Below are positions 31,013 through 40,826 of a DNA stretch of 64,000 nt, piece by piece. This DNA comes from Flavobacterium sp. HSC-32F16. Its GTDB lineage: Bacteria; Bacteroidota; Bacteroidia; Flavobacteriales; Flavobacteriaceae. The stretch is from assembly GCF_024171645.1 (NCBI RefSeq), contig NZ_JALKAC010000009.1, positions 1-64,000 on the forward strand, in the 5' to 3' direction. The translations under genes were made by a program, and so were the position numbers. The notes under the pieces were generated by a model. The model was not told the origin of the DNA. It ran no database searches and was given only the letters and a program-made list of their open reading frames with translations. Every line of letters begins with the position of its first letter. Position 1 is the stretch's first letter.

Positions 31013-31101
31013 ATGACTGCGTTTATATTTTCATTTAAAAGTAGCCTTTTTATTTAAAATGATCTGTTACAAATAAGGTCCTGTAAAAACGGGTTTGCAT
31101 T

Positions 31102-31198
31102 AAGATGGAAATGGCATCTGCCGATTTAGAAAAACAAGACTTTTAGTTGTAATTTTTGTTAATTGGAAATAGAGTGCACAGCCTGACAGAAGTGAACA
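31102..31198 (+). repeat. Diverged second copy of the 39.2-kb folded element
   Basis: Blocks aagatggaaatggcatct (31102-31119) and cacagcctgacagaagtgaacac near the end align with aaggatgggagcggcatcct and gacagcctgacccggagggacac of the element at 39176-39266. The middle hairpin is much weaker here. The 190-base gap between the GNAT and YdeI genes otherwise shows nothing coding. Confidence 0.4.
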
Positions 31199-31204
31199 CT
31201 CATA

Positions 31205-38859: not shown

Positions 38860-38884
38860 TGTTGTTATTTTTTAAGACAAAGTA

Positions 38885-38991
38885 TTGTCATTTCGACCGA
38901 AGGGAGAAATCGCACTCGTTTATCGATAAAGATTAGCGACTTGCTTTGTGGAGTTTCTTGTGAAGATTTCTCCCTTCGGTCGAAATGACAA
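38885..38991. repeat. Perfect 27-bp inverted repeat (tcgaccgaagggagaaatc)
   Basis: Left arm 38885-38911 and right arm 38965-38991 are exact reverse complements, with a 53-base interior that itself contains tatcgataaagattagcga. The long perfect stem suggests a folded RNA or an insertion-prone element. A copy of the right arm recurs at 39335-39360, and a diverged relative lies at 21226-21332. It is upstream of the SymE-like gene. Confidence 0.9.
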
Positions 38992-39100
38992 AAACTATCT
39001 TGTTTTGTAATAACCAATGTCTAACGAATAGTTGAGAATGTTGTCAACTTAAAAGTTTACAAGTAAGAATTTTATTAATAATTTTTAATATGCAGGAATA

Positions 39101-39130
39101 ATAAAACGACTTGTTTTCACAAAGTTGGTT
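39101..39130. repeat. Decayed copy of the tgttttcacaaa terminator unit
   Basis: The block cgacttgttttcacaaagttgg shares cttgttttcacaaa with 39266-39293 and, more loosely, with the functional terminator at 39364-39400. Its stem is largely lost. The surrounding sequence (38992-39175) otherwise holds no gene. Confidence 0.5.
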
Positions 39131-39175
39131 GATGTATCATAATTGCGTATAATTTATCTTTTGAAAAACTACTGT

Positions 39176-39266
39176 GCGTGAAGGATGGGAGCGGCATCCT
39201 TTTATGGCGGGGTTCGCCATAAAAGATACAGCGGACAGCCTGACCCGGAGGGACACGCCATAAAAA
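39176..39266 (+). ncRNA. Folded intergenic element with two competing hairpins
   Basis: The 5' block aaggat-ggagcggc-atccttt closes a short stem. Then ttttatggcg (39200-39209) can pair with cgccataaaa at 39215-39224 or, equally well, with an identical cgccataaaa at 39256-39265. The 3' part contains gcggacagcctgacccggagggacac. Similar elements are widespread in my recollection of Flavobacterium intergenic DNA, and the flavo-1 RNA motif is one possible name. I cannot verify that assignment. The strand is set by the plus-strand order of the conserved blocks. A diverged copy is at 31102-31198. Confidence 0.5.
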
Positions 39267-39293
39267 ATGACTTGTTTTCACAAATCTGATTTT
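39262..39293. repeat. Partial terminator-like copy
   Basis: The sequence aaaaaatgacttgttttcacaaatctgatttt keeps the loop and right arm of the terminator at 39364-39400 (tgttttcacaaatcggattttt) but has a mutated left arm. It looks like a decayed duplicate, directly after the folded element. Confidence 0.55.
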
Positions 39294-39360
39294 AAGACAA
39301 AGATTGGGGATTTGCTTTGTGGATATATGAGTGCGATTTCTCCCTTCGGTCGAAATGACA
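39290..39360. repeat. Partial copy of the 27-bp inverted-repeat element
   Basis: ttttaagacaaag at the start matches the sequence before the element at 38885. tttgctttgtgga and gatttctcccttcggtcgaaatgaca (39335-39360) match its interior and right arm. The left arm is missing, as if one half was deleted. Confidence 0.75.
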
Positions 39361-39363
39361 GAA

Positions 39364-39400
39364 TAAAAAAATCCGATCTGTTTTCACAAATCGGATTTTT
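39364..39400 (-). terminator. Terminator of lpdA, aaaaatccgat type
   Basis: A perfect 11-bp stem, aaaaatccgat (39367-39377) with atcggattttt (39390-39400), with a T run on the minus strand, 38 bases past the lpdA stop. Its stem is the same as that of the terminator at 32662-32697. Confidence 0.88.
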
Positions 39401-39437: not shown

Positions 39438-40826
39438 TTACAAGTGAATTACTTCGCCGTAAGCATCAGCAACCGCTTCCATAACAGCCTCGCTCATTGT
39501 TGGGTGAGGGTGGATAGATTTAAGGATTTCATGACCTGTAGTTTCTAGTTTACGAGCTACAACTGCCTCAGCAATCATATCTGTAACACCAGCACCAATC
39601 ATATGGCATCCTAACCATTCTCCGTATTTAGCATCGAAGATTACTTTTACGAATCCGTCAGCAGCACCGGCAGCTTTTGCTTTTCCAGAAGCTGAGAATG
39701 GGAATTTACCAATTTTTAATTCGTAACCTTTTTCTTTTGCTTGTTTTTCAGTTAAACCTACAGAAGCGATTTCTGGAGTTGCATAAGTACAACCCGGAAC
39801 GTTTCCGTAATCGATTGGATCTACGTGTAAACCGGCAATTTTCTCTACACAGTTAATTCCTTCAGCAGAAGCTACGTGAGCTAAAGCTTGTCCCGGAGTA
39901 ACGTCTCCAATTGCGTAGTATCCCGGAATGTTAGTTGCGTTGTAAGCGTTTACTAAGATTTTATCTCTGTCAACAGCGATTCCAACTTCTTCTAAACCAA
40001 TGTTTTCGATGTTTGTTTTAATTCCAACTGCCGAAAGTACAATGTCAGCTTCAAGAATTTCTTCTCCTTTTGCTGTTTTTACAGTGGCTTTAACTCCGTT
40101 TCCTGTAGTGTCGATTTTTTCTACAGAAGAGTTTGTCATGATTTTTACTCCTGCTTTTTTCATAGAACGTTCCATTTGCTTAGAAATGTCTTCGTCTTCA
40201 ACAGGAACAATGTTTGGCATAAATTCTACAATAGTAACTTCTGTTCCCATTGAGTTGTAGAAGTGAGCGAACTCAACTCCAATTGCTCCAGAACCTACAA
40301 TGATCATAGATTTTGGCTGTGTTGGTAATGTCATTGCCTGACGGTATCCAATTACTTTTACACCATCTTGAGGTAAGTTTGGTAACTCGCGAGAACGAGC
40401 TCCAGTTGCGATGAGAATGTGGTCAGCGCTGTATTCAGTAACTTTATTGTCTTTATCAGTAACGTCAAGTTTTTTTCCTGGTTTTAGTTTTCCAAAACCT
40501 TCGATAACGTCAATTTTGTTTTTTTTCATTAAGAATTGAACTCCTTTGCTCATTCCGTCAGCAACACTACGGCTGCGTTGAACTACTGCAGGGAAATCTT
40601 TATCGAATTCAGAAACTTTTAATCCGTAGTCAGAAGCGTGTTTTAAATAATCAAAAACCTGAGCAGATTTTAGTAATGCTTTTGTTGGGATACATCCCCA
40701 GTTTAAACATACACCACCAAGATTTTCTTTTTCAACTACAGCTACTTTAAAGCCCAATTGTGAAGCTCTAATTGCTGTTACATATCCGCCAGGACCACTT
40801 CCTAAAACAATAACGTCGTATTTCAT
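39438..40826 (-). CDS. lpdA: Dihydrolipoyl dehydrogenase
   Basis: A 462-residue E3 subunit of the 2-oxoacid dehydrogenase complexes; it reoxidises dihydrolipoamide with NAD. FAD-binding GSGPGGYV is at 9-16, and the redox-active disulfide GGVCLNWGCIPT has Cys40 and Cys45. The NAD-binding GSGAIGVEFAH is in the middle, and the catalytic HPHPTMSE is near the end. All key residues are intact and the length is typical. E1 and E2 genes are not adjacent. It is a single-gene unit with its own terminator. Confidence 0.97.
   Translation of the reverse strand: MKYDVIVLGSGPGGYVTAIRASQLGFKVAVVEKENLGGVCLNWGCIPTKALLKSAQVFDYLKHASDYGLKVSEFDKDFPAVVQRSRSVADGMSKGVQFLMKKNKIDVIEGFGKLKPGKKLDVTDKDNKVTEYSADHILIATGARSRELPNLPQDGVKVIGYRQAMTLPTQPKSMIIVGSGAIGVEFAHFYNSMGTEVTIVEFMPNIVPVEDEDISKQMERSMKKAGVKIMTNSSVEKIDTTGNGVKATVKTAKGEEILEADIVLSAVGIKTNIENIGLEEVGIAVDRDKILVNAYNATNIPGYYAIGDVTPGQALAHVASAEGINCVEKIAGLHVDPIDYGNVPGCTYATPEIASVGLTEKQAKEKGYELKIGKFPFSASGKAKAAGAADGFVKVIFDAKYGEWLGCHMIGAGVTDMIAEAVVARKLETTGHEILKSIHPHPTMSEAVMEAVADAYGEVIHL

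Follow-up and report, generated by a model that had tools for sequence, protein, structure and literature searches.

A three-way-junction variant of Flavo-1 in Flavobacterium sp. HSC-32F16, plausibly a palindromic DNA repeat dispersed in Bacteroidota

Table 1 of the original Flavo-1 publication rates the motif as a probable RNA ("y") and enters "n" for cis-regulation (PMC2864571, Weinberg et al. 2010). In Flavobacterium psychrophilum, Flavo-1 matches are described as lying indistinctly sense or antisense of transcripts, and many of them in none (PMC9723704), and Flavo-1 is counted among the most abundant bacterial sRNA families in a passage that gives no function (PMC9029176). Genes of the Bacteroidetes TnpA-REP subclass 2.6 are described as flanked by atypical structures that lack a GTAG foot and have copies elsewhere (PMC6006769). 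The passages on Flavo-1 or RF01705 found in this literature contain no description of a three-way-junction form.

The window analyzed here is a 64 kb stretch of the genome of Flavobacterium sp. HSC-32F16, which is called the own genome below. An Rfam search matched positions 39170–39249 to RF01705 (Flavo-1) with 59.8 bits, above the gathering cutoff of 42 bits; the only other over-threshold Rfam match in the window is one tRNA. The match confirms the guess of the original prediction, which had named Flavo-1 as a candidate and proposed such a search, and together with the covarying structure described below it supports the claim of a folded element; the conserved blocks that had been seen on either side of the hairpins proved to be part of the fold, namely its outer stem. 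Membership in the family is further indicated by the consensus arm structure with compensatory changes and by the occurrence in Bacteroidota. The element is intergenic and lies 3′ of a dihydrolipoyl-dehydrogenase-like gene (lpd, 39438–40826, minus strand; named from its translation), on the strand opposite to lpd. The unit has sharp boundaries, BLAST matches of other copies stopping at about 39175–39267 of the window. Our favored reading, at a probability of roughly 0.55, places this stretch in a family of palindromic DNA repeats dispersed in Bacteroidota, Rfam's Flavo-1, as a variant that we call class B. The features concerned are:

39174–39262, plus strand: whole class B Flavo-1 element, a three-way junction (covariance model R1, full length, 94.4 bits, E 6.3e-19)
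39176–39180, plus strand: outer stem P0, 5′ strand GCGTG, pairing with 39254–39258
39182–39192, plus strand: base of the main arm P1, 5′ side (AGG, T, G, loop GGA, GC)
39196–39227, plus strand: apical hairpin of the main arm (ATCCTTTTATGGCG / CGCCATAAAAGAT), its stem sequence varying among copies and exchanged at orthologous sites
39231–39241, plus strand: base of the main arm P1, 3′ side (GC, loop GGA, C, A, CCT), within the RF01705 match and covarying in alignment A3
39244–39252, plus strand: side hairpin P2 (CCC GGA GGG), 93.5% of cells paired
39254–39258, plus strand: outer stem P0, 3′ strand CACGC, overlapping the start of the second cgccataaaa block
31095–31203, plus strand: putative decayed class B element (R1 16.4 bits, E 0.17)

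The outer stem and the side hairpin, a small hairpin between arm and outer stem, are absent from RF01705 and set class B apart. Class A copies, the form modeled by RF01705, end in TAGCCC...GGGA at the arm base, whereas class B copies, including the one in the window, end in GCGTGAGGGAT...AGCCCGACCCGGAGGGACACGCC, with a conserved C(C/A) directly after the P0 3′ strand CACGC. The outer strands GCGTG/CACGC change together, to GCATG/CATGC or GCGTT/AACGC in other copies of the own genome. Alignment A3 holds 38 of 101 class B copies (72 from a pattern scan and 29 others), picked for short loops and with two rows that showed a one-base shift taken out (L025, L172). In it, 97.1% of the 972 cells of the full class B structure are paired, and the covariation score is 0.268, compared to 0.095 in shuffles and 0.020–0.082 when the structure is slid. 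P0 is paired in 100% of its cells, with both-sided changes in four of its five pairs, and the arm base reads AGG/CCT in 9 and GGG/CCC in 29 of the 38 copies. In the 72 class B copies of the pattern scan, 216 of 216 arm-base pairs are Watson–Crick; their outer stems contain 349 Watson–Crick, six G-U, four A-C and one other pair in 21 pair combinations, counts for which the partner strand was chosen with G-U and A-C treated alike, and in which six partners are doubtful (L351, L367, L376, L394, L405 and the distant partner of L384), five of the ten copies with a non-Watson–Crick outer pair being among those concerned. P2 varies in sequence and length, from 5 nt to long hairpins. It is a long, nearly perfect hairpin in L338, L342, L345, L357, L375 and L408, and its A and T runs in L338 and L345 resemble a bidirectional terminator. 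At the window copy itself, the T run that follows the hairpin of an intrinsic terminator was not seen; by eye, CATAAAAAATG follows the element on the given strand.

R1, the covariance model of class B, was built from the 38 sequences of A3, so that its 94.4 bits on the window copy are those of one of its own members. When 17 class B loci were scanned with RF01705, 17 matches of 42.6–62.7 bits were obtained in 16 of them, covering the arm only; the remaining locus is an interrupted copy from Cytophagales (L414), and the sole match to any other Rfam family in these loci was one tRNA. The model also gives a position to the diverged copy that had been noted at 31102–31198, which is real and degenerate. 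Flavobacterium tagetis (L367) has an intact class B element at the orthologous site; the gene beside it is the same and shares 79.5% identity over 453 nt. On this ground, decay of a class B element is the best reading of the copy at 31.1 kb.

Other repeats occur close to the element. A different palindromic repeat (GTCATTTCGACCGAAGGGAG...) lies at 38880–38995 and 39296–39360 of the window and has many copies in the own and related genomes, and three partial copies of the hairpin that follows lpd (gacttgttttcacaaa...), at 39104–39130, 39264–39290 and 39369–39400, flank the Flavo-1 element and this neighboring repeat. Short palindromes (TCCCGATAGCTATCGGGA or CCCGAAATTTCGGG) were seen within the Flavo-1 elements of L171, L258 and L125.

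Flavo-1 is dispersed through the own genome, with 45 RF01705 matches, 38 of them over the cutoff, at 43 places among 150 scored out of 1631 first-look candidates; the excess of matches over places comes from two near-perfect palindromes, each matched on either strand. These palindromes (L033, L038) are of the kind that quasi-palindrome correction would leave. Class A copies of the own genome reach 81.2 bits with RF01705. R1 scored a further six places at 57–71 bits that are absent from the RF01705 matches:

C9:171866, C6:235761, C6:246535, C9:83747, C10:184878 and C2:796786: candidate elements by R1 score

Copy number varies widely, from 0 to at least 64 RF01705 matches per genome of the genus, 64 being the number of candidates scored in each, and 58 of the 61 genus genomes are positive. 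The family spreads across the phylum: R1, which also scores class A copies, though lower, has matches in 17 of 118 phylum genomes with the own genome counted, and class B copies, 17 found in relatives and others from the pattern scan, belong to Flavobacterium, Winogradskyella, Mesonia, Aquimarina, Pedobacter, Chryseobacterium, Kaistella and Chitinophagaceae. The pattern scan of named genomes gave at least 116 stretches, of which 80 were used; the 3′ core was recognizable in 72, and some of the other eight (for example L371, L381 and L385) are still class B-like. The copies are nearly all intergenic and in mixed orientation. The gene context of the 43 own copies, from crude ORFs, is ++ in 17, −− in 10, +− in seven, −+ in seven and.+ in two cases, and a short ORF overlaps two of them (L009, L034). 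Stop codons of crude ORFs lie within 20 nt of the 3′ end in 22 of the 72 class B copies and of the 5′ end in six, a bias to which we gave no weight, the own genome having 2 vs. 2 of 43.

Orthologous sites show both presence–absence variation and replacement of the interior between conserved flanks. By eye, the element at the site of L024 is present in seven of 18 genus relatives. At the lpd site, R1 finds it in five of 46 loci from relatives, a sixth match (L077) lying more than 1 kb from the site, and one relative (L257) retains only the 3′ end of its element. Another genome (G091) lacks, by eye, about 225 bp including the element at the lpd site, which is compatible with insertion or deletion. 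Neither at this site in close relatives nor in the comparison of the sister species G006 and G075 was a cleanly empty site found; among five G006 copies traced in G075, one is mostly deleted, one is shared but altered and three are ambiguous, none revealing a precise insertion.

The interior differs in two of eight orthologous pairs of these sister species (L219/L243, L221/L242). In L219/L243, both inner-arm strands have been replaced and the loop as well; L221, L242 and L004 have three different loops at one site, and the hairpin of L242 is the exact reverse complement, thus an inverted form, of that of L004. Among sites matched to the own genome, where greater age likewise permits more change, interiors differ at four of the five with both flanks aligned (L004, L010, L028 and L013; L008 is the same) and at all four with one flank aligned (L033, L025, L026, L041), orthology being less sure for L237/L010, L252/L013, L250/L033 and L253/L025 with their modest flank identity, and L026 and L041 being judged from one comparison. 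L238/L028 combine flanks identical at 112 of 119 and 109 of 118 positions with a different interior. Since both arms can thus be replaced together at one site, compensatory change alone is no proof of an RNA here. The original prediction had held that the lack of a transcript and of such changes among copies would argue for a plain DNA repeat; the changes are abundant. Within the arm, L234 and L246 differ in nothing but one double change from A-T to G-C, which either selection for pairing or templated correction would leave. Summed over the eight pairs, differences number 48 in 630 positions of the element and 43 in 1583 of the flanking 100 nt per side, and without the two replaced pairs they number 14 in 474 and 23 in 1188, with no sign of extra conservation of the element in either case. 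This orthologue comparison took in 20 of 40 G006 and 20 of 25 G075 matches; it left out the pairs L220 and L227, both matched to the contig-end locus L245 with 77–81% identity, and non-colinear or contig-end matches to the own loci L034, L042, L011 and L015.

We infer from these patterns that copies spread and are homogenized at the DNA level. Mobility by any particular mechanism is a further inference from their dispersal and exchange. In such a mechanism, one strand of the element would fold into a hairpin, and new copies might arise via a trans-acting factor or by replication-linked template switching, while gene-conversion-like events would swap palindromic interiors between existing copies. 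Once inserted, copies would drift, making single pair-breaking changes near neutral, and covariation would mirror the choice of sequence lineages for copying or exchange. If a copy affected a neighboring mRNA, for example as a hairpin in the 3′ UTR, this would be a side effect peculiar to that copy. The core, unusually conserved across the phylum, counts against a drifting repeat.

The main alternative is that class B Flavo-1 is a functional RNA, either an sRNA or a protein-binding UTR element with GNA/GNA internal loops, in which RNA folding is under selection. We consider this rather unlikely, although it would account for the strong covariation and for a core conserved across the phylum including its unpaired bases (the search pattern dictated the 5′ strand and left the 3′ strand free), and it agrees with the "y" of the original publication (PMC2864571). 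Selection on an RNA should leave G-U pairs in excess over A-C, as in tRNAs, where 18 distinct sequences (from 30 of 52 matches) contain 16 G-U and one A-C. In the conserved stems of Flavo-1, G-U hardly exceeds A-C: the core pairs of 104 copies, out of 113 before score and duplicate filters, contain 13 G-U and 11 A-C (Fisher p 0.006 for the tRNAs against this core), and a DNA palindrome control has 27 G-U and 24 A-C. The 72 class B copies have G-U/A-C counts of 6/4 in the outer stem, 0/2 in one arm pair and 3/0 in the inner two-pair helix, so that the larger samples yield little G-U excess in core pairs. The apical stems, with 18 G-U vs. three A-C, lean toward a folded single strand or RNA, an excess that is partly a loop-closing G-T shared by descent. 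Six G-U cells and no unpaired cell in the outer stem and inner two-pair helix of A3 also point in the RNA direction.

The given strand reaches the consensus fold better than its complement, which would suit an RNA as well. With DNA parameters, the window strand folds into the comparative structure plus one extra inner pair (z −3.71), whereas RNA parameters yield another fold (z −1.94). Over 38 copies, 795 of 972 consensus pairs were recovered with DNA and 639 with RNA parameters, compared to 518 and 506 on the reverse strand; DNA parameters performed better in 24 copies and worse in eight, and the acceptor and T stems of 17 tRNAs gave no difference (169 vs. 167 of 204 pairs). As the folding comparison depends on energy tables, we use it as supporting evidence only. 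Against a functional RNA stand, in addition to the weak G-U signal, the absence of higher conservation in elements than in flanks between sister species, the mixed orientation to genes, the interiors swapped at orthologous sites and the lack of a consistent strand in the transcript data described for F. psychrophilum (PMC9723704).

Within the DNA-repeat reading, we tentatively propose that Flavo-1 might be primarily a Bacteroidota-wide DNA element rather than an RNA family, a single-strand three-way junction whose palindromic interior is exchanged as a cassette between dispersed copies in either orientation. If so, exchange alone would yield RNA-like covariation and mislead the standard argument for structured RNAs; Flavo-1 would need reclassifying if its covariation stems from DNA exchange, and covariation in other families of multi-copy hairpins would have to be examined for the same effect. 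The model built for class B defines the ends of the unit, indicates places in the own genome that are absent from an RF01705 search, and gives single sites at which interior replacement can be followed between strains.

Folding of single-stranded DNA, which fits best, and dispersal would also be explained if a Y1 (RAYT-like) transposase mobilized the element in single-stranded form, making it a non-autonomous REP-type unit of the kind found in REPtrons; the atypical structures described at TnpA-REP subclass 2.6 genes would then be candidates (PMC6006769). This seems distinctly improbable for our element. None of the seven Y1 transposase (Y1_Tnp) loci of the own genome, with 1.5 kb on each side, contains an R1 or Flavo-1 match, for which reason we rejected a Y1 transposase as partner in this genome; a phmmer search with five Y1_Tnp proteins against 480 loci returned only the seven known ones, and three of five plasmid homologues of one Y1 protein (L481–L483) have no R1 match nearby. 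At the three Y1_Tnp loci that were inspected for repeats, the inverted repeats differ in sequence from Flavo-1, and the A3 consensus lacks a GTAG-type tetranucleotide at the hairpin foot. Of the 159 Pfam families in 123 neighboring ORFs, the 25 most frequent include no transposase family. The target-site duplication expected of a MITE was not found in the 62 copies, out of the 72 of class B, that were used for this purpose (mean 2.16 vs. 2.11 in shuffles).

Two further candidates were rejected. Carriage by prophages or plasmids finds no match, neither in phage and plasmid collections by BLAST with 201 nt nor in viral contigs by exact pattern. An ORF6N reading frame lies directly upstream in two copies of one orthologous site; only two of 20 scanned ORF6N loci carry Flavo-1, and many copies reside in genomes without an ORF6N match (G003, G010, G013, G029, G036).

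The Y1_Tnp genes of the own genome merit a note of their own. At L107, L108 and L109 they are found near or between long inverted repeats, distinct in sequence at each locus, as expected of REPtrons. L108 also has a c4-2 RNA match (RF02944, 874–953, 64.6 bits, cutoff 41) near its Y1_Tnp gene and one copy of the GTCATTTCGACCGAAGGGAG-type repeat (580–686) about 800 nt from the Y1 transposase match.

Least probable by far is a two-state RNA switch, as originally predicted from two mutually exclusive hairpins in which ttttatggcg (39200–39209) would pair with either of two cgccataaaa blocks (39215–39224 and 39256–39265), for although these positions are exact and the triple recurs in the close orthologues L189 and L209, the alternative helix with the second block is at chance level in 38 homologues (50.8% paired vs. 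50.9% in shuffles, no covariation excess). The second block consists of the end of the P0 3′ strand, which belongs to a covarying outer stem, and an A+T-rich tail, and the ATAAAA behind CGCC is not conserved and differs between copies. Dinucleotide shuffling of the 91-nt element produced a 10-mer with two copies of its reverse complement once in 20,000 trials, and five of 6391 segments of 91 nt, taken at 10-base steps through the 64 kb, contain one; the triple thus exceeds the expectation from base composition. Its source is mundane: the apical hairpin TTTTATGGCG/CGCCATAAAA and a separately conserved 3′ end, CACGCC(A/C). The repeat coincidence is real in the window copy and its closest relatives, with no support from the wider comparison.

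Flavo-1 as a dispersed DNA repeat shares features with several known systems. Like MITEs, it is small, non-autonomous and dispersed with near-symmetric ends; unlike them, it shows no target-site duplication in 62 copies, and no parent transposon was found. Like the REP elements and REPINs moved by RAYTs, it is short, palindromic, intergenic, hairpin-forming, present in many copies and variable between species, but class B is a three-way junction of about 90 nt without a GTAG foot and has no Y1 transposase beside it in the own genome. The attC sites of integrons resemble Flavo-1 in that the folded strand is conserved and its terminal hairpin free to vary, and differ from it in the order and orientation of the conserved core boxes; we know of no integrase for Flavo-1, unlike attC. 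With RF01705, class B has in common the main arm with paired 3 × 3 internal loops and the occurrence in Bacteroidota, and it departs from the 76-position model in carrying an outer stem and a side hairpin and in having GGG/CCC at the arm base where the model has CCC/GGG.
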